NCBI GenBank assembly: GCA_027008705.1
Contig: JALVEB010000081.1
Location: 1 to 36,066 of the forward strand
Direction of reading: 5' to 3'
Length of the DNA: 36,066 bases
From: Sedimenticola sp.
Lineage (GTDB): Bacteria > Pseudomonadota > Gammaproteobacteria > Chromatiales > Chromatiaceae
The position numbers and the translations under genes were made by a program. Below, one piece after another: positions 12,763 to 35,902 of this stretch (position 1 is the stretch's first letter; each line of letters starts with the position of its first letter). A model generated the notes under the pieces. The model was not told where the DNA came from. It did no database searches and was given only the letters and a program-made list of their open reading frames with translations.

Positions 12763-12888
12763 GCCGGCCTCTTGATCCCGGCGGTCGTGGCGGCCCGGTG
12801 GAGAATCCGGTTATCATTGCAGTGGGAATGGTCGAATTCTGATATTCGCCATAGCTACTCGGCTGACCGCTGAAATGATTTTGACGGA

Positions 12889-12930
12889 CAAGGCACAGGC
12901 CCGATCAAGCACAGCGGATCGGGCAGCGGC
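12889..12930 (+). repeat. Short dispersed repeat (family 2) with GCCCGATC/GATCGGGC hairpin
   Basis: ACAAGGCACAGGCCCGATCAAGCACAGCGGATCGGGCAGCG; related copy at about 35858-35902. Confidence 0.6.
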
Positions 12931-13036
12931 GCGGTTTCGCGGTGCCGCCGTGGCCGGTTCCGTAGTACTTAGAACCGGCCAACGGAGGTGTTTGGGAAAG
13001 TAAGCATGATGGCCCTGTTTTCAGCGGTTGGCTGAG

Positions 13037-13199
13037 TATGCTCGTCGCCGCTGAATTTTCGGATTGTCGGGGTCGTTCCTCGCGCCCGTGGGCCAGGCGC
13101 GGAAACGAGTCATGGCCCATTCCATGGCGGCTTTCCGCAACGACGCCCCGGGTGCGAGAGGCGGTTTCAGTCGCCGAAAATTCATGGGCGAAGAGTATA
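13037..13199 (+). repeat. Nested-palindrome repeat, copy A (full length)
   Basis: Left end TATGCTCGTCGCCGCTGAATTTTCGG (13037-13062), right end CCGAAAATTCATGGGCGAAGAGTATA (13174-13199); interior shared with copies B, D and E. Confidence 0.85.
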
Positions 13200-13219
13200 T
13201 TTTCAATAGGGAGAGAAGC

Positions 13220-13474
13220 ATGCCTGTCTGGACTTTGATCGTTTGGTTATTGATTGGTGTCGGCGCCGGAATGTTGGCCCGTCGTTTCATGGGCGGACAG
13301 TCGCCCGGCGGGCTGCTCGGCGATTTGGTTCTGGGGATTCTCGGCGCGGTACTCGGCGGCTACCTGTTGGCCTTGTCGGGCGTGGGTGGCAATGGTGGCA
13401 TCATCGGCAGTTTCATCGTCGCGGTGCTCGGCGCGATGCTGTTGCTGTGGATTGTGCGCAAGCTGAAGGGCTGA
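13220..13474 (+). CDS. GlsB/YeaQ/YmgE-type small membrane protein
   Basis: 84 aa MPVWTLIVWLLIGVGAGMLARRFMGG...GGLLGDLVLGILGAVLGGYL; RBS GGGAGAG just upstream. Confidence 0.85.
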   Translation: MPVWTLIVWLLIGVGAGMLARRFMGGQSPGGLLGDLVLGILGAVLGGYLLALSGVGGNGGIIGSFIVAVLGAMLLLWIVRKLKG

Positions 13475-13486
13475 TGGAGGTTCGCC

Positions 13487-14134
13487 ATGGTCGATGAAAC
13501 CCAAGACCCGGAAGAAAAAGGCCTCTTCGAACGCCTCTCGGAGATTCTCAGCCAACCCTTGCCGGGTACGCGGGAGAAGGTCGAGCTGCCGAAGGGTGCG
13601 GAGGTCACCGCGGCGCAGGTGGAGGATGACGACAGCCTGTTCGACCGCATCCGCGACGTGCTCGCGCAACCGGCGGACGCAGCGGAGGTAGAGCCGGCTC
13701 CAGTCCCCGCTCCGATACCCAAGGCCGCCCCCACTTCCGAATCGCCGTCCGCGGCGGACGAGCCGGAAGACGCCGGGATGCCCGAGTGGTACCGTTTCGA
13801 GTTGAGCCGTTTCGAGCAATATCAGGCGCAAGAGCGACGCAAGCTGGCCGAGCGCCAGCGTCAGGAGCTGGCGGCCTTTCAGCGTTACCAGCAGACCCAG
13901 TTGAGCAATTTCAGCAACCACCAACTGGCGGAATTGAACGCTTTTCACCGCCATCAGAGTGCGCGCCTGGAGGCATGGAAGCAGATGCGCAACGGTGGTC
14001 AGCCGCCCGGCGCCGTGTTGCCGCCGGGTTGGCCGCCGGGGATGCCGCCTCCTCCGGGTTGGCGGCCGGGCATGCCGTTGCCGCCGCAACCACCGCGGGG
14101 ATGGATGCCGCCCGGCCCGTGGCGTCGCAGCTGA
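13487..14134 (+). CDS. Hypothetical protein with charged/Gln-rich central helix and proline-rich C-terminus
   Basis: 215 aa; RFEQYQAQERRKLAERQRQELAAFQRYQQTQLSNFSNHQLAEL then PPGWPPGMPPPPGWRPGMPLPPQPP; 12 bp after the previous CDS. Confidence 0.8.
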   Translation: MVDETQDPEEKGLFERLSEILSQPLPGTREKVELPKGAEVTAAQVEDDDSLFDRIRDVLAQPADAAEVEPAPVPAPIPKAAPTSESPSAADEPEDAGMPEWYRFELSRFEQYQAQERRKLAERQRQELAAFQRYQQTQLSNFSNHQLAELNAFHRHQSARLEAWKQMRNGGQPPGAVLPPGWPPGMPPPPGWRPGMPLPPQPPRGWMPPGPWRRS

Positions 14135-14146
14135 CGCCGCCAGCGC

Positions 14147-15424
14147 ATGAAGTGGCCGATACCCTGGCGTCGGAATCGCGCGGTGGCGCGGCGCGCGGAA
14201 GATTTGTCCGCGCTCGCGCCGCCCAGGCGCGAGCCGTCATTGCGGCACCGACTGGCCACGCCGGTGGTCTGGGCTCTGGGGTTTTCCTTGCTGTTTTTCA
14301 TCGGCGGTTATTTCGGACGCAGCCTTTACGACAGCATCCTGGCCCGGATCGATCTGCACAAAAGCGTGCATGACGACGACAGCCAGGTCGGACTGAAGGT
14401 CGAGTCGCGCGCGCCGCGACGCATCGCCATGCTCGAGGTCGATGTGGGTGGCCGGAAGCGTCGCGTCGCGGTCGATTCCTCGGACCTGAGCGCCTTCGTG
14501 AGCGAGCATCTCGATCGCCTCGAGGCGCAGCGGCTGGCGAGCCTCACGCGCGTCGACGAGGCGCTGGAGCGCGCTGTATCGCCGGTATTCGATGATATGG
14601 AACAACGCATCCAGCGCTATGCCGACTGGTATTTCGCGTGGCTCACGACCTACCGCATCATGGGGGTTGCGCTTCAGAGCGCGGCCGCCTACCTGGCAAA
14701 GCCGGTCAGCGCGCTGAGCCTGCGTGAATCGGTCGAGCTCGAGGTGCGGAAATACCTTGCCGATCATTACAACCGCTTGGTGTTGCGGCCCGAGATCAAT
14801 GATGCGCGCTTGCGTTCCGCGTTCGACCAAGTGGTCGAGCGCGCACACGGTGATTTTCTGCGCGCCATGGCGCGGGTCGACCGTGGCTTCCAGGCCTTCG
14901 CGCTGCGCCACGATCAGCCGCTCGCAAAACCGCCGGAGAGCACCATGCGGCTCGACTGGGCCACCCAGTTCAACAAGCTCGGCCGTCTCACGGCCTACGA
15001 GAAGGGCGACATGGGCGCGGCGGCCGGCGCGCTGGTGGTCGGATCCGGAGCCCTGGTCGGCGCCAAGATCGGCGCGCAGGCGCTGGCCGCCGGCGGCAAG
15101 GGCTTGATGGCAAAACTGGCTTCGCCGTTCGTTGCCAAGGGCGCGAGCGCGGCGGCGGCGGCTGGCGCGGGCGGCGCCGCCGGCGTCATCGGCGGTCCGC
15201 TCGGGGCCTTGCTTGGGGCGGGCATGGGCCTGGGGGTCGATGCCGCGGTCAATGAAGGGGTCGAACTGGTGCAACGCGATGATTTCATCGCCGACACCCG
15301 GGATGCCCTGCATGCGATGCGCGAAGACTGGCTGACGCGCATGCGTCGGGCGCTGCATCATGCGATCGATACCTGGTATGACGATGGCGAGCAGCTACTC
15401 GCGGCCTACGACGCGCGGCGTTGA
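14147..15424 (+). CDS. Hypothetical membrane protein with Gly/Ala-rich hydrophobic C-terminal region
   Basis: 425 aa; TM VVWALGFSLLFFIGGYFG near the N-terminus; GAAAGALVVGSGALVGAKIG...GAGGAAGVIGGPLGALLGAGMGLGVDAAV near the C-terminus; 12 bp after the previous CDS. Confidence 0.8.
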   Translation: MKWPIPWRRNRAVARRAEDLSALAPPRREPSLRHRLATPVVWALGFSLLFFIGGYFGRSLYDSILARIDLHKSVHDDDSQVGLKVESRAPRRIAMLEVDVGGRKRRVAVDSSDLSAFVSEHLDRLEAQRLASLTRVDEALERAVSPVFDDMEQRIQRYADWYFAWLTTYRIMGVALQSAAAYLAKPVSALSLRESVELEVRKYLADHYNRLVLRPEINDARLRSAFDQVVERAHGDFLRAMARVDRGFQAFALRHDQPLAKPPESTMRLDWATQFNKLGRLTAYEKGDMGAAAGALVVGSGALVGAKIGAQALAAGGKGLMAKLASPFVAKGASAAAAAGAGGAAGVIGGPLGALLGAGMGLGVDAAVNEGVELVQRDDFIADTRDALHAMREDWLTRMRRALHHAIDTWYDDGEQLLAAYDARR

Positions 15425-15434
15425 GCCGGAGGCG

Positions 15435-16775
15435 TCAACCGCTATAGAACATATCGCGGTACATGCCTTCCCCCCACGCCAGTCCGGCCTGGGCGATGCG
15501 CGTGCTCCATTGCTCCACCATATGGGTGCGATCAAAGGCAAAGGTCTTCTGCTGCTTGTCGTAGCGGTAGAAGGCGATGATGCTCATCGCTTCCAGCGGG
15601 TCGATATGCACTCCCGAGAAGCACATCGTCTGCGGGCTGCGCCAGGGGATCTCTCGCCCTTCGGCGTGCGCGGCGATCACTTCGGCGACATAACGGGCTT
15701 CTGAGTTTGCGGTATTGCCGCTCTTCGAGAACGGCTGCGAGCGCGCGTCGCCGCACAGGTAAAGGTGTTCGTCGCCGATCAAGTGGTATTTGAACGGGTC
15801 GATGCGCGCCTCTTTCTGCGGTGTGTTCAGGTCGGCCAGCTCCAGGCGCTCGAGCAGGCGCGAGGCGCGTACCGGCGGGTAGATCGCGGCATCGTCGAAG
15901 GCATATTCGTCGAAATCGGTGGCGATCACGCGTCGCGTCGGGTCGACCGAGGTGATGCCGACGCTGGTTTCATACTGGATGATGTCGGGATAGAAGGTCT
16001 TGAAGGCGCGTAGAAAACCGTCGCGCTTGATGCGCACGTCCGGATTCATGTCGAGCAGCAACACCTTGGCGCGGACGCCGCGCTTGCGGAAGATGGCCGC
16101 CGCCATGCAGGCGCGCTCGTAGGGCGCCGCCATGCAGCGGTAGTTGCCGGCCGGCACGGTGAGCAGAAAGGTGCCGCCGCGAAAGCTCTGGAGCTTGTTT
16201 TTGATCGTCAGCAGTTCCGAGGCCCCGGTGAAGCCGGCGGGGTAGTGGGTGCGTAGCGCGTACTCATCGCCAGGGTCCTCGACGCCGAGGCGGGCGTAGT
16301 CATAGTCGATCCCGGGGGCCATTGCCAGGTAGTCGTAGTCGATATAGCCCTGTTCCGTGTGCAGCCGGCGTCGCGTTCGATCGAGGTCGATCACGGTGGC
16401 GTTGAAGAACAGGTAGCCGTTGTTGCGCGCCGCGTCGAGGTAGCTGTGCGTGAGAAATTCCAGGGGGATCTGCTGGGCCATCCACAGGTTGCTCAGCGGG
16501 CAGGAGACGAATACCGCATGGCGGTCGATCAGTACCACGTCGAAGGCTGGATGAAAGCGCTTCAGGTACTTGGCCAGCGTCAGTCCGGCCCAACCGCCGC
16601 CGACCACCACCACGCGCGCTCCCCGTGCCTTCGGCAACGGCGCGCGCAGCGAGCTCAGCTGGTTGATGAACGGCGTTGCCGGAGAATCCGCTCCCCGCGC
16701 GAGACCGGTGGCGAGCAGCAGTCCGCCGGCGCAGCCCGCCTTCAGCAAATCACGGCGCTTGAAGCCTTGTTTCAT
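15435..16775 (-). CDS. FCSD/FccB-like FAD-dependent pyridine nucleotide-disulfide oxidoreductase, Tat-exported
   Basis: Tat-type signal FKRRDLLKAG; VVVVGGGWAGLTLAKYLKRFHP; VSCPLSNLW (candidate FAD-linking Cys); YRCMAAPYERA; LYLCGDARSQPFSKSGNTANSEA. Confidence 0.85.
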   Translation of the reverse strand: MKQGFKRRDLLKAGCAGGLLLATGLARGADSPATPFINQLSSLRAPLPKARGARVVVVGGGWAGLTLAKYLKRFHPAFDVVLIDRHAVFVSCPLSNLWMAQQIPLEFLTHSYLDAARNNGYLFFNATVIDLDRTRRRLHTEQGYIDYDYLAMAPGIDYDYARLGVEDPGDEYALRTHYPAGFTGASELLTIKNKLQSFRGGTFLLTVPAGNYRCMAAPYERACMAAAIFRKRGVRAKVLLLDMNPDVRIKRDGFLRAFKTFYPDIIQYETSVGITSVDPTRRVIATDFDEYAFDDAAIYPPVRASRLLERLELADLNTPQKEARIDPFKYHLIGDEHLYLCGDARSQPFSKSGNTANSEARYVAEVIAAHAEGREIPWRSPQTMCFSGVHIDPLEAMSIIAFYRYDKQQKTFAFDRTHMVEQWSTRIAQAGLAWGEGMYRDMFYSG

Positions 16776-16791
16776 GTCGAGGTCCTGTCGT

Positions 16792-17475
16792 TCAACGGAA
16801 ATCCGGGTTGCGCCAGTCGGCCGACGGCGCGAGATCGGTGGCGGGTACCGGCAGGCGCGAGACATAGTTCAGGATGTGTCGCAGCCGGGTGTCGTCGAGG
16901 GTTTTCACAATGGTCTCCATGGCCGGGTCGACACGGCGCAGCACGCGCCGGATCAGCCCGATCTGCCGCACCATGTAGGCATAGTGCTGGCCTTGCAGAC
17001 GCGGATAGTAGTGACGATTGTCGCCTTCCCCGCGCAGTCCGTGGCAGGCGGCGCATCGCGAGACATAGAGCCGTTCCCCCTCGGCGTATTCCGGCGTGCC
17101 GGGCGCCCAGGGCCCTTGGTCGTGGTCGGGCGTCATCGGCAGGGTGGCGATATAGGCGACGACGTCGGCCAGGGATTGATAGCCGCCGATGGTGCGCTCC
17201 TGCACGAAGGGAAACATCAAGGGGTTGGAGCGCTTGCCGCTGCGGATGTTGAGCAATTGCCGTATCAGGACGTTGCGATGCTGGCCGGCGAGTTGGGGAT
17301 AGGTGCCGTCTTTGTTGCCCCAGCCCTCGGGCAGGTGACAGGCCGCGCAGATGGCATAGATCTCGCGCCCGTTGGCGAGATCGGGCTCGAAGCTCAAGGT
17401 GATCTGGATGGGGGCGGCCGATGCCGGCGGTGCGCCGAGGAGCACGCTCAGCGCGGCCGCGATGAAATATCGCAT
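16792..17475 (-). CDS. Diheme c-type cytochrome
   Basis: Signal peptide MRYFIAAALSVLLGAPPASAA; two CAACH haem motifs; ends 16 bp before the FCSD-like start. Confidence 0.9.
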   Translation of the reverse strand: MRYFIAAALSVLLGAPPASAAPIQITLSFEPDLANGREIYAICAACHLPEGWGNKDGTYPQLAGQHRNVLIRQLLNIRSGKRSNPLMFPFVQERTIGGYQSLADVVAYIATLPMTPDHDQGPWAPGTPEYAEGERLYVSRCAACHGLRGEGDNRHYYPRLQGQHYAYMVRQIGLIRRVLRRVDPAMETIVKTLDDTRLRHILNYVSRLPVPATDLAPSADWRNPDFR

Positions 17476-17488
17476 GCGCCGTTCTCCC

Positions 17489-17776
17489 TCAATCGTGCGC
17501 GATGGGCGTGTCGCTGAAGAGGTAGTCTCTCAATTCCTTGTCGAATGCCGGGTCGCGGCGACGGATCCATTCCAGCACCATCGCGGCGTGTTCCTTTTCC
17601 TCGTCCCGGTTGTGGGCGAGAATCGCGCGCAGCTCGTCGTCCCGGCAGGCGTCGACGCGCTGGTTATACCAGTCCACCGCCTCCAGCTCTTCCATCAGCG
17701 AGGTGATGGCGCGGTGCATGTCGCGGGTTTCATCGCTGAGTTCCGCCAGGGGTTCGTGATAGCCTTCGTTCGACAT
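17489..17776 (-). CDS. Encapsulated-ferritin-like (EncFtn family) protein
   Basis: 95 aa; HEPLAELSDETRDMHRAITSLMEELEAVDWYNQRVDA...ILAHNRDEEKEHAAMVLEWIRRRDPAFDKELRDYLF matches recalled EncFtn pattern including the EE..WY and E..H residues. Confidence 0.85.
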   Translation of the reverse strand: MSNEGYHEPLAELSDETRDMHRAITSLMEELEAVDWYNQRVDACRDDELRAILAHNRDEEKEHAAMVLEWIRRRDPAFDKELRDYLFSDTPIAHD

Positions 17777-17843
17777 GGTGTTCGTCTCCATTGTCGGGCG
17801 GGTAGGATGGCCGCCGCGCGGTCGGGGCGCGGCGGTCGCGGTT

Positions 17844-18557
17844 TCAGCTATACAGCTTCGGCGCGCCGAGATGCTCGTGGATGGCATTCACGGTGGCCGG
17901 TTCGATGCCCAGGCCCTGCGCCAGCTGATGCAAGTACTGCGCCTCGGGGTTGCTGTCCAGATCGATCGCCATCAGCGAGACAGTGTAGACCTGTTCCGCC
18001 ATGCCGGGCGGGATTTCGCGCACGAAGGCGTCCACGTCCAGCGGCGCGGCCAACTCGCGTTGCACGAAATCGATCTCTTCCTGGCTGACATCACCGAGCT
18101 TGGCGATGATCTTCTGTTGTTCTTCGCTGTCTACCTCGCCGTCCGACTTGGCCGCGTTGATCATCGCCCGCACCAGGATCAGGGCCTGCTCCTCGGCTTG
18201 ATGAGGTTCGATGGGGTTGAAATCGGCGCGATCCGGAACCTGTCCGCCGCCTGCGGCCTGGTTCCCGCCGAATTGTTTCATCGCCATCCCAAGCAGATCG
18301 CCCAGGCCGCCACCCGCGCCGGACGCGCCGCCACCGCCGAGCAGGCCGCCGAGCAGATCGCCGATGCCGCCAGCACCCGGGCCACCCTGCATCTGGCGGC
18401 TCGCGCCGCCGAGCAGATCGCCCAGGCCGCCGCCCGAGGACTGGCCGCCGCCCATCACCGCGCCGAGCAAGGAGCCCAGGATGTTGGAACCGGAGCCGCG
18501 CGACATCGCGCCACTGCTGAGCAGGCTGCCAAGGATCTTCATCGCGTCGATTGCCAT
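17844..18557 (-). CDS. DUF533 (YebE/TerB-like) protein with Gly-rich N-terminal repeats
   Basis: Repeated GLGDLLGG/GIGDLLGG/GLGDLLGM; C-terminal LILVRAMINAAKSDGEVDSEEQQKIIAKLGDVSQEE. Confidence 0.85.
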   Translation of the reverse strand: MAIDAMKILGSLLSSGAMSRGSGSNILGSLLGAVMGGGQSSGGGLGDLLGGASRQMQGGPGAGGIGDLLGGLLGGGGASGAGGGLGDLLGMAMKQFGGNQAAGGGQVPDRADFNPIEPHQAEEQALILVRAMINAAKSDGEVDSEEQQKIIAKLGDVSQEEIDFVQRELAAPLDVDAFVREIPPGMAEQVYTVSLMAIDLDSNPEAQYLHQLAQGLGIEPATVNAIHEHLGAPKLYS

Positions 18558-18680
18558 GGTGTCTTTCTCTCCTTCAAATCAATATCGTAATCAAATCAAT
18601 AGTCAAAAGGTTTTCAGAGCGCTTATCGTGGCTCTGTCGCTGACGGTACTACAGTGCGCGGCGGCGTGCATCCCTTTGTC

Positions 18681-18863
18681 ATGCTCGTCGTCCATGAATT
18701 TTCGGCTGCCGGTGGCACTCTTCACATCCTTGGGCAGGGCGCGGAACGCATCCGCCGCCTGTCGAGCCTGGAGGATCGTCCGTCCGGCCCGTCATCTTGC
18801 CGTCCTCTCTGCGAAGGCATGGACCGATCGCGCCGGGTTGGCGGCTCATCGGGCTTGGGAGTA
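18681..18863 (+). repeat. Nested-palindrome repeat, degenerate copy B'
   Basis: Left end ATGCTCGTCGTCCATGAATTTTCGG (18681-18705); interior diverged with TGGGCAGGGCGCGGAACGCA; putative right end near GGAGTA at 18859-18863. Confidence 0.45.
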
Positions 18864-18866
18864 ATC

Positions 18867-19033
18867 TATACTCGTCGCCCATGACTTTTCGGATTTTCGA
18901 GACCGTTCCTCGCGCCCGTGGGCCAGGCGCGGAAGCGAGTCATAGCCCATTCCATGGCGAGTTTCCGCAACAACGCCCACGGGTGCGAGGGGCGGTCGCA
19001 GTGGCCGAAGGCTCATGGACGATGACCAGTATA
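18867..19033 (+). repeat. Nested-palindrome repeat, copy B (full length)
   Basis: TATACTCGTCGCCCATGACTTTTCGG...CCTCGCGCCCGTGGGCC...GCCCACGGGTGCGAGG...GGCCGAAGGCTCATGGACGATGACCAGTATA. Confidence 0.85.
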
Positions 19034-19079
19034 ACGATCAGCGAACCCTTCCACTCATCCCAAGCCGGATACTGATTCC

Positions 19080-19859
19080 ATGCCCCCCCGAAACCGGAAG
19101 AACCAGATCATCCACCGCTGCCAGCAGCCGACCCGCTGCAAGGATTGCGAGGTGCGACGCCGCGCCTTGTTTCGTGGTGTCGCCGAGGAGCAGTTGAACT
19201 GGATGCAGGAATACCGCCATGCACAGTTCGAGGTGCCAGCGCGATACGAGCTGTTCAGCGAGGGAGAACCCGCGGATTATGTCTATACCTTGCACGATGG
19301 TTGGGCGATCATTTACAAAACTGTTTCCAACGGGAAGCGCCAGATCATGCGTTTTGCCCTTTCCGGGGATTTTCTCGGTTTCCAGGCCGATCTGTCGGCG
19401 CCGATGGGTTACGGCATTACCACTCTGACCTCGTGCCGGGTATGCGCTTTTCCACGCGCGCGCATGGAGGACATGCTGGCAGCCAACGCCCGCGTCGCGA
19501 TGCGCCTGGCCGAGATGAACGCCCGCTACATGGCGATCTGCCAGACTCATCTGCTGTGTACCGGACGCAAGCCGGCCCGCGAGCGCCTCGCCTACCTGTT
19601 CCTGGAGCTCTACCATCGCCTGCGTCAGCTCAATCCGGCCATCGGCGAGGAAGAGGGGGTGGAATTCCCGCTGGCCCAGGAAGAGATCGGCGACGCCATC
19701 GGCCTGACCAACGTCCACGTCAGCCGCACCTTGCAGGAATTGAAACAGGATGGCTTGGTGCGGATCGCCGGAAAACGTCTGTATATCCTCGATCCGGAAC
19801 GCTTGCAGGCTCTCGCCGAGTTCGATCCGAGCGTAGTGGCTGAGAATGGCTATCTCTGA
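19080..19859 (+). CDS. Crp/Fnr-family transcriptional regulator with clustered N-terminal cysteines
   Basis: CRCQQPTRCKDC-like N-terminal region (RCQQPTRCKDCEVRRR), cNMP-binding fold (YELFSEGEPADYVYTLHDGWA), HTH EEIGDAIGLTNVHVSRTLQELKQDGLV. Confidence 0.9.
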   Translation: MPPRNRKNQIIHRCQQPTRCKDCEVRRRALFRGVAEEQLNWMQEYRHAQFEVPARYELFSEGEPADYVYTLHDGWAIIYKTVSNGKRQIMRFALSGDFLGFQADLSAPMGYGITTLTSCRVCAFPRARMEDMLAANARVAMRLAEMNARYMAICQTHLLCTGRKPARERLAYLFLELYHRLRQLNPAIGEEEGVEFPLAQEEIGDAIGLTNVHVSRTLQELKQDGLVRIAGKRLYILDPERLQALAEFDPSVVAENGYL

Positions 19860-20550
19860 CGACCATCGTTTCGAGCCGATCGGCGTATTGCATTCGCCGT
19901 TTCGGGACAAATTCGGGATTCCGCGCCAGGCCGGTCTGGCCCCGGTCGAGACGCGCCTGGAGTTGTTTTCTCCCTACAACCGGCCGGAAGCGCTTGCCGG
20001 GCTCGAATCCTTCTCGCATGTATGGCTGCAATTCGTTTTTCACCGCATCCCACGAAACGCCTGGAAACCTTCGGTTCGTCCTCCCAGGCTTGGTGGCAAC
20101 CAGCGTGTCGGCGTATTCGCCAGCCGCTCCCCGTTTCGCCCGAACCGGCTGGGGCTCTCCTTGGTGCGTTTGTTGTCCCTCGATGAAAGCGGCGCCGGCC
20201 TGCGCCTGCTCGGCGCCGATCTGCTCGACGGCACGCCGGTGCTGGATATCAAGCCCTATCTGCCGTGGGCCGAGGCTCCGCCCGATGCCGAGGCGGGCTG
20301 GGCCGGCGCGCCGCCCCGGCGCCTGGCGGTGCGCTTCTCGCCGCGCGCCGAGGCCGCGCTGGCGGCGCGCGCGGGCAAGATTACACCAGAACTGCTGAGC
20401 GATCTGTTATCTCTCGATCCGCGCCCGGCCTACCATCAGGTCTCATCGCGTGAATACGGCATGCGCTTCGGCGATCTCGAGATCAAGTGGCGGGTCGATG
20501 AGCGGGGCGTATGGGTCAGCGCCGTGGATTCCACCACTGACTCGCACTGA
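19846..20550 (+). CDS. tsaA: TsaA/TrmO-type tRNA N6-methyltransferase
   Basis: FEPIGVLHSPFRDKFGIPRQAGLAP, GVFASRSPFRPNRLGLS, DLLDGTPVLDIKPYLPWAEA. Confidence 0.93.
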   Translation: MAISDDHRFEPIGVLHSPFRDKFGIPRQAGLAPVETRLELFSPYNRPEALAGLESFSHVWLQFVFHRIPRNAWKPSVRPPRLGGNQRVGVFASRSPFRPNRLGLSLVRLLSLDESGAGLRLLGADLLDGTPVLDIKPYLPWAEAPPDAEAGWAGAPPRRLAVRFSPRAEAALAARAGKITPELLSDLLSLDPRPAYHQVSSREYGMRFGDLEIKWRVDERGVWVSAVDSTTDSH

Positions 20551-21010
20551 GCGCGGCGAGGAACAGGAAGCCGGCCAAGGTCCAGCCCGGGATGCTGATG
20601 CCGAGGAAGGTCCACAATACGTCGGCGCAGTCACCGCTGCCCTTCAGCAGCAGGGGGATGGCATCGAGCAGCGGGAAATTTTCCATGATGTAGTCGTAGC
20701 CTGGCCCGCAGTCGGGGATCTGGTCCGGCGGCAGGTATTGCAGCCACAAGTGCCGGATCGAGATCGCCGCGCCGCCGGCGGCAACGAGGAAACCCAGCAC
20801 GGCATAGACACGGGTGCCGATCGGCCCAGGGTTGTGTAGCACCGCGAGCAGAAACACCGCCGCGACCGCGAACATCGCCATGCGTTGCAGAATGCATAGC
20901 GGGCATGGCTCCAGATGCAGATGCAGCTGAAAATAGCCGATGGCGAAGCCGATCATGCCGAGCGCGGCGAGCAGGCCGGTCAGAAAGACTTGGCGAGGGG
21001 TAAGGGACAT
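20516..21010 (-). CDS. dsbB: Disulfide bond formation protein DsbB
   Basis: EPCPLCILQRMAM (CxxC) and second Cys pair IPDCGPG...GSGDCADVLW; four hydrophobic segments. Confidence 0.93.
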   Translation of the reverse strand: MSLTPRQVFLTGLLAALGMIGFAIGYFQLHLHLEPCPLCILQRMAMFAVAAVFLLAVLHNPGPIGTRVYAVLGFLVAAGGAAISIRHLWLQYLPPDQIPDCGPGYDYIMENFPLLDAIPLLLKGSGDCADVLWTFLGISIPGWTLAGFLFLAALSASQWWNPRR

Positions 21011-21043
21011 CCTGAACTCCGTTTGTAATAAAACCGGGAGGCG

Positions 21044-21146
21044 TATACTCGTCGCCCATGGGGTTTCGGTTTTTCGAGGTCGTTCCTCGCGCCCACGGGT
21101 GCGAGGGGCGGCCGCAGTGGCCGAAAATTCATGGGCGGCGAGTATA
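21044..21146 (+). repeat. Nested-palindrome repeat, copy C (internally deleted, 103 bp)
   Basis: TATACTCGTCGCCCATGGGGTTTCGG...TTCCTCGCGCCCACGGGTGCGAGG...CCGAAAATTCATGGGCGGCGAGTATA; about 60 bp interior missing relative to B. Confidence 0.85.
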
Positions 21147-21148
21147 TT

Positions 21149-22621
21149 CTACCCCTCCCGTTCTTGATCGCGCAGGCTGCCCAATGTTTTGGCGCGTTGC
21201 TCGTCGATGCCGGACATCAATCGGTAGGCCAGGTAATACTTGAAGATATTGGCGACGTAGCGCACCGTTTCACGGCCCGTGATCAGGCCGGCGGCGACCT
21301 CCACATGGCCGAACCAGCGGTTCGGGTCCAGCCCCATGCGCCGCGCCAGTTGCCGCATCTTGCGCAGCTTGGCCGGCCCGGCATTGTAGGCGGCCAGCGC
21401 CAGCGCAAAGCGGTCTTCGGCGCGGATTGCCGGCTCGGCGAGGTAATGGTCGCGCAGCCAGGCCAGGTATTTCGCGCCGGCATGGATATTGTTTTCCACT
21501 TTGTGGATATCCGCGATGCCGACCGCTTTCCCACGCGCCGTGCTCGGCAGCAACTGCATGATGCCGATTGCGCCGCGCGGACTTTTCCGTGATTGGTTCA
21601 ACCCGGATTCCTGGAATCCCTGCGCGGCCAGCGCGAGGGCGTCGAATCCATAGCGCTTCCCATACTTGCGGAACAGACCGATCAGGTGTTCGAATCGTTT
21701 CCGCGCCTGCTCCGAGGTAGGATTGCGCAGACGCCTCGTATTGCCGTAGTACTGGCGGAACAGCAGGTTGCCCAGCATCGTCCCCTTCCGCGTCAGACGA
21801 ACATGCTCCTGGAGACTGGCGAGCAGCTTCGGGTTGTTTTTCCGGATCGCCCAGGCGACCGGAGTGGCCTTGCGCAGCGTAAGCTTCGGATACAGCTTCA
21901 GATGCCGCAGCACGCCGGCCCACAGTCCGGCCTTGAAGTCGTCGACCACGGTGTAGTCGATGACGCCGTTGTTCGCCAGTTCGAGCAGGTCTTCCGACAG
22001 CAGGTGCTGGTCGGCAACATGGATGATGACCGGTGGTTTTCCGCGCGTGGCAAGATCCCGGTTGAGTCTTTCGAGGCTGTCGAGATAACTGCCTCCGCGC
22101 AGGACCCATACGGTTTTTCCGCTGAGGTCCTCCAGCGTCTTCAAAGCGGGCGCCTTGGCGCCGGCGACAACGATCTCGGCCACCCGCAGCCCGGTTCCGC
22201 GCGCGAAGGAGACCTGACGTTCCCGTTCCGGGGTGATCGTCAGCAGCGCCGCGGCGACATCGCCCTTGCCGGCGACGAGATCGGGCAACAGGCGATCGAA
22301 CGGCACGGGCACATAGACGATGCGGATACGTTCCGATTCCTTGCGGGCACCTTTGTTCAGACGCTTCTCCCATTCCTGAAGCAGCGCGGCCTGGAAACCA
22401 CCGAGTCCTTTTCGGTCGAAGAAGAAATCGGTCTTGCTGTAGGTGACCAATGCGCGGATGAAGCCGCGCTTGCGCATCTCGGGCAGATCGCCGCGGAAGG
22501 TCTCGGAGATCCGTTTCTCGACGGCTTTGCCGGTGTCTTTCGTCCCCGGGGCGGCTCCGGCCGCGGCGATTGCAAGCGCGCCGATGGTAAACAGACCCGG
22601 CAGTACGTTACGGAGCTTCAT
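21149..22621 (-). CDS. mltF: MltF-like membrane-bound lytic murein transglycosylase (SBP-like domain plus SLT domain)
   Basis: N-terminal SBP_bac_3-like region (LVAGKGDVAAALLTITPERERQVSFA) and SLT motif FQESGLNQSRKSPRGAIGIMQLLPSTA. Confidence 0.9.
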   Translation of the reverse strand: MKLRNVLPGLFTIGALAIAAAGAAPGTKDTGKAVEKRISETFRGDLPEMRKRGFIRALVTYSKTDFFFDRKGLGGFQAALLQEWEKRLNKGARKESERIRIVYVPVPFDRLLPDLVAGKGDVAAALLTITPERERQVSFARGTGLRVAEIVVAGAKAPALKTLEDLSGKTVWVLRGGSYLDSLERLNRDLATRGKPPVIIHVADQHLLSEDLLELANNGVIDYTVVDDFKAGLWAGVLRHLKLYPKLTLRKATPVAWAIRKNNPKLLASLQEHVRLTRKGTMLGNLLFRQYYGNTRRLRNPTSEQARKRFEHLIGLFRKYGKRYGFDALALAAQGFQESGLNQSRKSPRGAIGIMQLLPSTARGKAVGIADIHKVENNIHAGAKYLAWLRDHYLAEPAIRAEDRFALALAAYNAGPAKLRKMRQLARRMGLDPNRWFGHVEVAAGLITGRETVRYVANIFKYYLAYRLMSGIDEQRAKTLGSLRDQEREG

Positions 22622-22737
22622 TATTGGTATGCTACCCTGATTTTTTTATCGGTTGGACTTGGACGAGTATATACCCATCATCAATGAACCAGAGGGCAGC
22701 CAGCGTGTGGGAGCGTCATGTCGCTACGGGATGAACC

Positions 22738-23544
22738 ATGAGTGCGGGTCGGCGATTGCTGCGCTCGCTTCTGTTGGCGTTGCATTTGGTGGCGGGGCTG
22801 GTGCTGGTCGGTTGGCGGTTGGTGGTATCTCGGGGTGGCTTTCACACAGCCGCCTTTCGCGATACTGTCCGACAATGGCATCGCCGCGTTTGCCGTATCC
22901 TCGGGATACGGGTTCTTGTGCATGGGGATCCTCCGCCGCCCCCGGTGCTGGTGGTTTCCAATCATGTCTCATGGCTCGACATCCCGGTATTGGCCTCGGT
23001 TCTGAATCCTCTCTTCCTTTCGAAGGCCGAGGTGCGTCGCTGGCCGCTGATCGGCTGGCTGGCCATGGGGGCGGGGACGCTGTTCATCGAACGCGGTCGT
23101 CCGGGGCAGGCCGATCGCGCGGTCCGGGCGCTGGCCGACGCATTGCGCGAGGGACGTGAGGTGTTGTTCTTTCCGGAAGGGACGACGAGCGACGGCAGTC
23201 GCGTACGGCGATTCCATCCACGTCTGTTTCAGGCCGCGATCGATGCCGGCGCGCCGCTTCAACCGGTGGCGTTGTGCTACCGTGCCGCTGTCGGCGTCGA
23301 CAAACGCCTGGCCTTTACCGGGGACAATAGCGCGCTGCGCGTACTGTGGGAGGTGTTGGGCCGGCGGGAGAGCCGCGTGGAGTTGTACTTGTTGGCGCCG
23401 ATCACAGCGGGAGGAACACGGGATGCCCTGGCGAAACAGGCTCGCGCCGGGATCGCGGAGGTGGTGGAGCGCTGCAATGCCGCCAGGGATGGATCGCGTG
23501 GGACGGAGACCAGGGGGGCATCCCACGGTACTCGTCGCTCATGA
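22738..23544 (+). CDS. plsC: 1-acyl-sn-glycerol-3-phosphate acyltransferase (PlsC family)
   Basis: VSNHVSWLDIPVL (NHxxxxD), EGREVLFFPEGTTSDG; C-terminus runs into repeat copy D. Confidence 0.92.
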   Translation: MSAGRRLLRSLLLALHLVAGLVLVGWRLVVSRGGFHTAAFRDTVRQWHRRVCRILGIRVLVHGDPPPPPVLVVSNHVSWLDIPVLASVLNPLFLSKAEVRRWPLIGWLAMGAGTLFIERGRPGQADRAVRALADALREGREVLFFPEGTTSDGSRVRRFHPRLFQAAIDAGAPLQPVALCYRAAVGVDKRLAFTGDNSALRVLWEVLGRRESRVELYLLAPITAGGTRDALAKQARAGIAEVVERCNAARDGSRGTETRGASHGTRRS

Positions 23545-23690
23545 ATCTTCGGCAAAAGCGCCCGCCCCTCGCACCCGTGGGCGTCGTTGCGGAAACTCGC
23601 CCTGGAATGGGCTATGACTCGCGTCCGCGCCTGGCCCACGGGCGCGAGGAAGAGTCTCGAAAATCCGAAAATTCATGGGCGACGAGTATA
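23529..23690 (-). repeat. Nested-palindrome repeat, copy D (full length, reverse orientation)
   Basis: TACTCGTCGCTCATGAATCTTCGG...GCACCCGTGGGCGTCGTTGCGGAAACTCGCC...GCGCCTGGCCCACGGGCGCGAGG...CCGAAAATTCATGGGCGACGAGTATA. Confidence 0.88.
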
Positions 23691-23745
23691 AACTCACATT
23701 GTTGCCTTGGTCTGAGGCACTTCAGCGGTGATCCGGGTGGTTACT

Positions 23746-24069
23746 TTATTTCTTGATCAGCAGGTCCTCGATCTTTCCACCCTGGTCGATGTATTCTTGT
23801 ATCCACTTGGGTCGCTTTCCCCTGCCTGACCAGGTTTGTGTCCGGTCGTTCGGGTTACGGTACTTTGGCGAAACCTGAGAGCGCCGCGAGATCTTCTCGC
23901 CAATGAGTTCGCTAAAGGTGAAGCCGGATTTCTCGGCCAGCTCCTTCATTTGTTTCAGCAGGGCGGCTTTTTCTTCTTCGATTTTTTTCTTGATCGTCCG
24001 TGCGATTTCCGTCTCCAGTTCACGGAGTTCCTTGACGCTGAGTTTGGAGATGTCGAATTTCTTGCTCAT
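23746..24069 (-). CDS. H-NS family nucleoid-associated protein
   Basis: 107 aa; coiled-coil N-terminus and C-terminal PKYRNPNDRTQTWSGRGKRPKWIQEYIDQGGKIEDLLI typical of the H-NS DNA-binding domain. Confidence 0.93.
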   Translation of the reverse strand: MSKKFDISKLSVKELRELETEIARTIKKKIEEEKAALLKQMKELAEKSGFTFSELIGEKISRRSQVSPKYRNPNDRTQTWSGRGKRPKWIQEYIDQGGKIEDLLIKK

Positions 24070-24260
24070 TACAGGGTTGCCTCTTTGGTCAGTAGGTTAT
24101 GCCGGGATAGCTTGTTGGATATTCATCGGCTTGTCCTGAAAAATCCATGATGCCGGCTGTCAGATCCGTGGCGCCGCCATGGATTCCATCAAAAAACTTG
24201 CTGTTGGTCATGGCCGTTGGCTGAATCGGCGAAGATGGATCGTCGTTCTTCCCATCCGTT

Positions 24261-24296
24261 ATGGACGCGTTGCTCACCCGTATGGGCGAGCGTCCA
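24261..24296. other. Stem-loop between the H-NS start and the AT-rich upstream region
   Basis: ATGGACGCGTTGCTCACCC-GTAT-GGGCGAGCGTCCAT: TGGACG/CGTCCA and GCTCACCC/GGGCGAGC arms. Confidence 0.5.
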
Positions 24297-24388
24297 TGGT
24301 CTTGATTACGAGCGAATGGGACTATCGATGACGCCCGGACAATCAACGGGCAAGCCATGGTTCGATCACGAGCTGGTTAATCATTAAG

Positions 24389-24426
24389 TATATTCATCGT
24401 CTTGATTTTAGACGACGACATATATT
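24389..24426. repeat. Candidate mini-copy of the nested-palindrome repeat (ends only)
   Basis: TATATTCATCGTCTTGATTTTAGACGACGACATATATT; left 14 bp match the repeat end at 10/14 with four transition differences. Confidence 0.35.
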
Positions 24427-24636
24427 CTACATTCGGTTCGATATTGTCAATAGTTCGTCCCGATATCGAATCGAAGAATGAGAGGTTAAGGAGGACCGTC
24501 ATGCCACGATACGGCTTCGGAGGGCTGTCGATCGTGTGACTTGTTCATTCGGGTTGATCAAGGTTAATTCTATATTGATCGGTCGGCGTATAATTGAGTA
24601 ATTCCCGATCTTTTTGCGTCATTTGGAACACATGCT

Positions 24637-25200
24637 ATGAAAAAAACGTTATTGTTGCTTGGATTGTGTCTTTCCCTGGGTGGCTCGTTCGCCCAGGACA
24701 GCGAGCCGCTCGTCGCGGCAAGTCGGGCGGCGGTCAAGGTTTATGCCACCCGGTTGAAAGGCGAGTTGGTAAAGGCGATGAAATCGGGTGGCCCGCTGCA
24801 GGCGATCGAGGTGTGTCATGGAAAGGCGCCGATGATCGCGCGCGAGGTTTCGTTGGAGAAGGGACTGCGCATCGGCCGTACCTCGTTGAAGACACGAAAC
24901 CCCGGGAATGCGCCCGATGCATGGGAGCGAAAGGTGCTTGTTTCCTTCGAGGAGCGCAAGGCGCGCGGTGAGTCGCCGAGCAAAATGGAGTACTCGGAGC
25001 TGGTCGAACGGAATGGTCAGCGGGAGTTCCGTTATATGAAAGCGATACCGACCGGAGCGGTGTGTCTGAACTGTCACGGCGCCGACATCGCACCAGCGGT
25101 GGCGGCAAAACTCGATGCACTCTACCCCCAGGATCAGGCGCGGGGTTTCAAGATGGGCGATATTCGCGGTGCGTTCACAATCCGTCAATCGAAGGAATGA
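24637..25200 (+). CDS. DUF3365 (Tll0287-like) haem-binding protein, exported
   Basis: Signal peptide MKKTLLLLGLCLSLGGSFAQ; single CLNCH haem c motif; ALYPQDQARGFKMGDIRGAFTI C-terminus. Confidence 0.85.
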   Translation: MKKTLLLLGLCLSLGGSFAQDSEPLVAASRAAVKVYATRLKGELVKAMKSGGPLQAIEVCHGKAPMIAREVSLEKGLRIGRTSLKTRNPGNAPDAWERKVLVSFEERKARGESPSKMEYSELVERNGQREFRYMKAIPTGAVCLNCHGADIAPAVAAKLDALYPQDQARGFKMGDIRGAFTIRQSKE

Positions 25201-25264
25201 GGCCTTTCTGATTTAACCCGGAAATTTCATGAATTCATGTGATGATCGCGCAGTGGATTGTTTT

Positions 25265-25329
25265 CACAAGAAATTTTCTGAAGGCGCCCCGTATCAGGGA
25301 TTACGGGAAACAGAAGAAAATTTCTTGTG
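25265..25329. repeat. Nested inverted repeat downstream of the DUF3365 gene
   Basis: CACAAGAAATTTTCT (25265-25279) and perfect reverse complement AGAAAATTTCTTGTG (25315-25329), with inner CCCGTA/TACGGG stem. Confidence 0.7.
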
Positions 25330-25354
25330 GGAACAAGAAGCCAGCGAGGGCGCG

Positions 25355-25514
25355 TGTAATCCATGAATTTTCGGCCACTGCGACCGCGCCCCTCGCACCC
25401 GTGGGCGTCGTTGTGGAAACCCGCCATGGAATGGGCTATGACTCGTTTCCGCGCCTGGCCCACGGGCGCGAGGAACGGTCCCGAAAATCCGAAAATTCAG
25501 GGGCGACGAGTATA
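25355..25514 (-). repeat. Nested-palindrome repeat, copy E (near full length, reverse orientation, left end eroded)
   Basis: CCATGAATTTTCGGCCACTGCGACCGCGCCCCTCGCACCCGTGGGCG...GCGCCTGGCCCACGGGCGCGAGGAACGG...CCGAAAATTCAGGGGCGACGAGTATA. Confidence 0.87.
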
Positions 25515-25551
25515 CTCAGCGGTGATCTGAGCAGTTACCTTCCACTTCGAG

Positions 25552-25845
25552 TTACTCTCCGGCTTCTTCCAACCAGCCTGTAAGGGCCTCGACGACTTGT
25601 TTGGCCTGCGCCGGGCTGGAGATGTTGAACTTGGATTTTTGGTTGTATTCCCCGTCACGTTTCTGGTAACGGCGAATGGTATATTTGTCCTTGCTGTATT
25701 CTTCCTTGGCGCGGTTCCATTCCTGGTAGCGGTAGATCACCGTTGTCCACGCGCCCTTGGAAAGGATTTTCTTGTCCAGTTCCTTGACGATGTCGATGCC
25801 GTCTTCCGTGTAGTTGATGCTGAGTTCGTCTGGAGTCGAAGCCAT
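25552..25845 (-). CDS. Small conserved-looking hypothetical protein (97 aa)
   Basis: Acidic/Lys-rich, KDKYTIRRYQKRDGEYNQKSKFNISSPAQAKQVVEALTGWLEE; same strand as, and 26 bp after, the ankyrin gene. Confidence 0.75.
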   Translation of the reverse strand: MASTPDELSINYTEDGIDIVKELDKKILSKGAWTTVIYRYQEWNRAKEEYSKDKYTIRRYQKRDGEYNQKSKFNISSPAQAKQVVEALTGWLEEAGE

Positions 25846-25871
25846 ATTGGTAATCTCTCTGGGTGGATAAC

Positions 25872-26507
25872 TTATTTTGCGCCGTTCGCCTTCAACAACT
25901 GGGCGATTCGTTCCGCGCCCAGGCGATTGGCCGCGGTCAACGGGCGGGTTCCGTCGCGGCCGGGCTGATTGACATCGGCGCCATGCAGGATGAGCTGTTT
26001 GACCAGCGCGGGGCGTTCCTGTTCGATCGCCAACAACAGCGGTGTTTTTCCGTTGGCGTCGACGACATCGAAACGGGCGCCGTGGCGCGCGAGCAAGCGA
26101 TAGACATCGCGGTCGGATACCCCGGCGTTGACCATTTCGAACAGCAATCGATCCCCTTCGAAGGGCGCGCCGACGGCGATCAGTCGTTCCGCGATGCGCA
26201 TGCGGCGGTTCTTCAGTGCGGTTTCGAGTACCGATTCCCCGCTAAGATTGGTTTTGCGAGGGTCCGCGCCAGCCTCGATCAGCAGCTGGACGATCGCCGG
26301 GTCGCCGTTGCGAACCGCCAAGTGTAATGGGGTATCACCGTTCGGAAACAACTGATTGACCTTGGTGTGCCAGAACAGGTGCCGCTTGATTTGTTCGATA
26401 TCGCCATTCGCCACCGCCGGGTAGAAGCCGGTTGTCGGCGGTTGTGGCTTGGAGCAGGCGCCAATCGCCAACATCATCATGGCTAACAGCGGGAGCAGGG
26501 GGTTCAA
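25872..26507 (-). CDS. Ankyrin-repeat lipoprotein
   Basis: Lipobox-like LAIGAC; repeats NGDTPLHLAVRNGDPAIVQLLIEAGADP, SGESVLETALKNRRMRIAERLIAVGAP, NGKTPLLLAIEQERPALVKQLILHGADV. Confidence 0.9.
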   Translation of the reverse strand: MNPLLPLLAMMMLAIGACSKPQPPTTGFYPAVANGDIEQIKRHLFWHTKVNQLFPNGDTPLHLAVRNGDPAIVQLLIEAGADPRKTNLSGESVLETALKNRRMRIAERLIAVGAPFEGDRLLFEMVNAGVSDRDVYRLLARHGARFDVVDANGKTPLLLAIEQERPALVKQLILHGADVNQPGRDGTRPLTAANRLGAERIAQLLKANGAK

Positions 26508-26654
26508 GTGATTCTCCAGTCGACACCGGCAAAGGCGTGGCCGGGTCGCATTCCTCTGGTCTGTCAGGGTTTCTGGTTGGATGCGCCGAGACTATAGCAC
26601 AGGCCATTGGAATTGCGGCATCGAGGATGTCGCCATCCCAGGGCTCGTCAGCCA

Positions 26655-26692
26655 TACTCATCGCCCTCGAAAAACCATGGGCGGCGAGTATA
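26655..26692. repeat. Mini-copy F of the nested-palindrome repeat (ends only)
   Basis: TACTCATCGCCCTCGAAAAACCATGGGCGGCGAGTATA. Confidence 0.65.
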
Positions 26693-35812: not shown

Positions 35813-35857
35813 CGGTGGTGGCATATTCAGAATAACCGCTTACATGCCATTGGCATG

Positions 35858-35902
35858 ACAAGGCGTAGGCTCGATCAAGCGCAGCGGATCGGGCGACAGC
35901 GC
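35858..35902 (+). repeat. Short dispersed repeat (family 2), second copy
   Basis: ACAAGGCGTAGGCTCGATCAAGCGCAGCGGATCGGGCGACAGCG, closely matching 12889-12930. Confidence 0.6.

Follow-up and report, generated by a model that had tools for sequence, protein, structure and literature searches.

What is the palindromic repeat that recurs between the genes of this stretch of Sedimenticola DNA, and by what means did it spread? Contig 81 of a draft genome of 2.9 Mb forms the window (the whole stretch analysed, 36,066 nucleotides), and in it a sequence-only reading had described a dispersed family of nested palindromes. A profile made from the copies listed in that reading, and later a covariance model, found seven places of this family (family A) in the window, given here with two neighbouring repeats that lie outside the element and with the cobalamin riboswitch, the window's only match in Rfam:

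12885 to 13008, minus strand: family C copy, a third dispersed family, adjoining the first family A copy
13037 to 13199, plus strand: full-length family A copy (160-bp element), TA flank on either side, 114.8 bits
18681 to 18747, plus strand: partial family A copy, recognisable at its left end only, 36.9 bits
18867 to 19033, plus strand: full-length family A copy with a degenerate right terminal repeat, 126 bits
21044 to 21146, plus strand: internally deleted family A copy of 103 nt (against 164), 85.7 bits
23529 to 23690, minus strand: full-length family A copy, opposite orientation, 120 bits
25213 to 25372, plus strand: family B copy (CTAACCCGGAAATTTCATG...), a second dispersed palindromic family, touching a family A copy
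25355 to 25514, minus strand: family A copy without its left terminal repeat, fused to the family B repeat, 95.7 bits
26653 to 26692, minus strand: 40-nt family A micro-copy, a palindrome of two terminal repeats nearly back to back, 18.7 bits
32561 to 32744, minus strand: cobalamin riboswitch, 143.9 bits (Rfam)

The element and its copies

The family A unit is 160 bp long (TACTCGTCGCCCATG...CATGGGCGACGAGTA) and lies between duplicated TA dinucleotides, with terminal and inner inverted repeats of 24-26 bp that occur in both orientations. The five copies first described (starting at 13037, 18867, 21044, 23529 and 25355) are real, lie in both orientations and have these repeats in common, although the one at 21044 is an internal deletion and the one at 25355 has lost its left terminal repeat where it abuts the family B repeat. 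The degenerate copy proposed at 18681-18863 is recognisable over its first 67 nt but not over the remainder, and the mini-copies also proposed include a genuine one, the 40-nt palindrome at the right end.

The 24-nt end has 272 matches genome-wide at up to 3 mismatches, against 0 for the reversed pattern, and the profile has 0 matches in reversed sequence, so that chance is excluded. In the 1.715 Mb read, a sample that covers 227 of the 272 end matches and is biased toward copy-bearing contigs, 154 copies score 30 bits or more and 91 of these are near full length; the modal end-to-end length is 160 bp, the exact length in 53 end pairs, and family A makes up 1.2% of the DNA. Scaling up from 46 stretches with less bias gives about 150 copies per genome and scaling by end matches about 185; these estimates put the genome at roughly 150-200 copies, which bears out the "dozens or more" that had been predicted. 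Most copies are not young, the median identity to the consensus being 92.7% (at least 95% in 24 of 75 copies), and internal deletions of many different lengths that retain both ends are recurrent.

Avoidance of gene interiors, claimed from the window, holds on a larger scale: with genes called by a simple codon-based gene finder over 1.18 Mb, all 64 full copies have their midpoint between genes, where 8.7 would be expected. The further claim that a copy lies in most intergenic gaps between 12.8 and 26.7 kb is roughly right, as by the gene calls used here 6 of the 9 gaps longer than 100 bp do, the micro-copy included. Copies are spread at similar density over convergent (17 over 17 kb), divergent (20 over 28 kb) and tandem gaps (51 over 82 kb), with no marked preference, and show no clear bias in orientation relative to tandem genes (19 sense, 32 antisense), which together argue against a dedicated terminator or promoter role. 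Insertion of the element lengthens the DNA by 162 bp (54 codons exactly), and the consensus is open in two of its six frames (for example in the copy at 18867-19033); the terminal repeat has an ATG facing outward and a TGA facing inward, and the end of the element is overlapped over 12-17 bp by some predicted genes.

Several other repeats were seen beside family A. Family C is a dispersed repeat of roughly 235 nt with ends CCAGGGCAATCGCGCTT..., for which 121 copies in 1.7 Mb score 30 bits or more (among them window 12885-13008, window 35848-35902, L205:6679-6868 and L160:91-280); a CRISPR array with the repeat CGGTTCATCCCCACGGGCGTGGGGAACGC lies at L205:8554-10296. Family B, with CTAACCCGG ends, has 22 copies in 1.7 Mb, and hybrids occur that combine an A end with a B interior or a B end, apparently via a shared CATGAATTTTC (family B or hybrid units lie at window 25213-25372, L214:4246, L057:5189-5353 and L078:5424). 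Seventeen exact 13-nt A ends, against about 0.1 for shuffled 13-mers, lie outside the copies recognised by the profile (L041:6429, L042:16491, L055:2167, L156:4932 and others), several of them lying tail to tail against full copies and separated from these by a single TA; some belong to short deleted copies, and simple insertion does not explain the others.

Insertion at TA and the search for a transposase

Conservation of family A starts and stops abruptly at TATA. Orthologous intergenic regions in the relatives G001 (the closest one that has copies) and G002 are mostly too diverged for clean empty sites, and nested insertions were used instead. The copy at L160:286-449 sits inside a family C copy, and its flanks, joined with a single TA, are 98.8% identical to intact family C, a direct demonstration of the TA target duplication. 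Further empty sites, paralogous or orthologous, are consistent with TA (L056:16230, L049:13877, L212:2758 and window 21044), the last being empty in the two nearest relatives, including G001, in a way that fits the duplication. At least one copy occupies the same site in this genome and in G001 (L060:1224 and L112:7771), and the genome of G002, which belongs to the same genus and is 99% complete, has no match to the end. Separately, L112/L173 of G001 and L060:1202-2559 of this genome share 96% identity along 1.36 kb, where most other matched places show about 75%, which reflects either recent exchange or bin contamination.

The element is short, has terminal inverted repeats, duplicates TA at its target and contains no protein gene, features expected of a TA-type bacterial MITE. 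Given its exact ends, the TA duplication, the intergenic spread and the internal deletions that keep both ends, it is very probably a bacterial MITE, a non-autonomous transposable element, that inserts at TA. MITEs of this type usually have an autonomous relative with matching ends, although for ERIC, too, none is known.

Such an element would depend on a transposase acting in trans, probably lost or encoded elsewhere. Between no pair of element ends in the 1.7 Mb read (227 of 272 end matches) is there a transposase. Long intervals between ends (250-3900 bp) were considered as an autonomous element, and the five that were read hold ordinary genes only; the genome's single intact IS630-type transposase was considered as the mobiliser, and its own ends are unrelated to those of the element; and 30 IS630-type loci from relatives include no matching end pair. 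Since no matching transposase or IS630 ends were found, it is the TA duplication by itself that would point to a DDE transposase that targets TA and is of the IS630/Tc1-mariner type. This enzyme would recognise the ends TATACYCGTCRC and would have spread the element to its present copy number, with copies that landed in genes being purged.

Two known systems offer comparisons. The RUP element of Streptococcus pneumoniae, for which IS630-Spn1 is the proposed mobiliser (PMC2229807), is likewise TA-targeted and non-autonomous and has terminal repeats, although in this case the IS630 with matching ends is what was not found, either in the genome's intact copy or at the relatives' loci. The Correia or NEMIS elements of Neisseria resemble family A in their 24-bp terminal repeats, TA and long hairpin, whereas their terminal sequence is probably different; the IHF-site consensus, a feature of the long Correia form, is absent from all 75 family A copies searched. 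Their forms of about 155 and 107 bp (PMC2229807) parallel the 160 and ~100 bp forms found here, although internal deletions in family A vary widely in length.

An end shared with ERIC

ERIC sequences have been used for decades in bacterial typing, and we know of no transposase or mode of movement described for them. The outer ten bases of family A, TATACTCGTC, are identical to one end of the enterobacterial ERIC elements: four ERIC copies from enterobacteria whose right end is intact all close with GACGAGTATA, which is identical to the A end, and the element has the TATACYC / TATACYCGTC terminus of ERIC. Published ERIC units start tatacccgtc in E. coli and tatactcgtc in S. enterica (PMC2759123 Table 1a), and a TA duplication has been reported for them (PMC2759123). 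Family A is like ERIC (IRU, RU-1) in having TATACYCGTC at one end, TA ends with TA duplication, a single long hairpin, intergenic placement, high copy number and open frames through the unit; it differs in its unrelated body, in its length (160 bp against 127 bp), in a host outside the Enterobacterales and in its long paired terminal arms, where ERIC has 7 contiguous pairs (PMC2229807). The element thus resembles ERIC, probably works in a similar way and shares its end, without itself being called ERIC. The sequence-only reading did not recognise a named family, and no exact match to one was found: Rfam gave no match at gathering score, E. coli genomes no match to the element, phages and plasmids no copy, and no viral contig carries the exact end. 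What that reading missed is that the ends are those of ERIC.

One way to explain the shared end is that family A belongs to the true ERIC lineage, as a diverged relative whose body is also homologous. The ten identical terminal bases, the hairpin, the intergenic placement and the reported TA duplication of ERIC would all fit, and the superfamily covariance model described below aligns three ERIC copies along the whole length of the model, weakly (14.6-16.6 bits, E 0.017-0.059). The family B hairpin of the window, however, also reaches 16.6 bits, the local score between the bodies of family A and ERIC (16) is not above that of shuffled sequence (median 15), and the lengths disagree, so that we regard such descent as unlikely.

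We give no greater weight to the opposite explanation, in which an independent TA-type MITE matches the ERIC end by coincidence. Only about eight bases (TACTCGTC) are informative, and several TA-type MITE families are comparable, ERIC having been picked because it came to mind; yet an identity of eight bases has a chance of about 3e-5 over the two ERIC ends (our own estimate, other families uncounted), and homologues in the genomes G405 and G339 show C and T variants at the very position that varies likewise in published ERIC.

A fold conserved across families

The consensus folds as one near-perfect nested hairpin (-118 kcal/mol) made up of an outer stem of 26 bp, an inner stem of 23 bp and a stem-loop at the centre. 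Covariation is weak among the copies of this genome and its nearest relatives (20 double-changed cells against 9.8 shuffled), and RNAalifold recovered only part of the fold from the family A copies. Inverted TATACYCGTC ends 140-170 bp apart occur in only 4 of 369 gammaproteobacterial genomes, with 0 in the control: this genome, G405 (13 copies), G339 (3) and G481 (1), the G481 unit fitting M17 and L109 in coordinates and letters. With a relaxed end pattern single matches are at about chance level (the control has single matches in 5 genomes), and only multi-copy genomes or matches at model coordinates were kept.

Units from G405 and G339 measure 161-164 bp, with a sequence known except for 1-4 central bases, and retain TATACYCGTCRC, the TTTT/AAAA step and the central stem (TAATAG/CTATTG, against TCATAG/CTATGG in family A). 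With the ends removed, the interior of family A aligns with that of G405 above shuffling (z 4.85) and weakly with that of G339 (z 1.0-2.0 for matching and up to 3.1 for opposite orientations), which connects to family A via G405 (G339-G405 z 4.5-6.3). In an alignment of ten sequences both sides are changed in 30 of 56 pairs, and there are 99 double-changed cells against 38.8 shuffled, counts that are not of independent events, the ten sequences forming about four related groups; columns such as 14/153 and 17/150 have three or four standard pair types, which need several events. Covariation is 0.505 against 0.212 shuffled (0 of 500) and at most 0.200 with slid partners, the last comparison being biased toward the structure, which was derived from this same alignment. 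The compensatory changes in the arms that had been predicted are therefore weak in family A and become strong once homologues from other families are included. On sequence comparison, homologues in other families of Gammaproteobacteria keep the ends and the central stem while their arms carry compensating changes, for which selection on a folded intermediate, selection on RNA and homogenisation of the arms during replication may each be the cause.

A covariance model built from the ten sequences finds, at E ≤1e-4, only family A copies in 586 kb that also hold other palindromic families. At E ≤1e-6 it has a match in 59 of the 369 genomes; full-length matches of at least 60 bits occur in about 31 (a hand count, most known from score and position) and of at least 100 bits in 13 genomes of 11 families (also counted by hand), and unrelated hairpins may account for matches confined to model positions ~23-141. 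Elements with TATACYCRTC-like ends, and other repeats too, contain a recurring module like GACGCCGTGAATACGTCC..TGTAGGCT (G458:C1:229250-229411, L242, L177), which suggests interchangeable bodies.

The very stable fold and the strong cross-lineage covariation with its nearly invariant central stem could also be read as those of a hairpin that functions primarily in RNA or DNA, as an mRNA stabiliser, RNase III site or terminator under host selection, with mobility secondary. The needs of transposition can also maintain palindromy, however, and the gap and orientation counts given above, the lack of a consistent T-run after the hairpin and the absence of the element from the 99% complete genome of the same genus make this improbable. 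Effects on mRNA processing have been reported for ERIC and Correia, and by analogy a transcribed family A element would fold into a hairpin of high stability and could act similarly. A REP or BIME-type repeat moved by a RAYT (Y1 HUH) transposase via single-stranded hairpins, which are RAYT substrates, would also be palindromic, intergenic and in high copy number, but is very hard to reconcile with a 160-bp unit, far longer than REP, and with the TA duplication, as Y1 transposition leaves none.

Returning to a TA-inserting element of the MITE kind, its ends would be the same recognition site as those of ERIC, and ERIC and family A would form branches of a single group in which the ends are shared and the bodies differ. 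We tentatively propose, as a possibility short of our expectation, that a class-wide group of TA-inserting hairpins shares the end TATACYCGTCRC and includes ERIC among its branches, and that in its main branch the 160-bp fold as a whole is conserved more than the sequence. If this is true, the folded single strand or cruciform would itself be needed for transposition or by the host, and the strong covariation at fixed length makes the question of whether fold or sequence is the substrate a testable one. An ERIC-ended relative with TA duplications, some 150-200 copies and a wide host range would also offer a route to the transposase, via genomes with young, near-identical copies.
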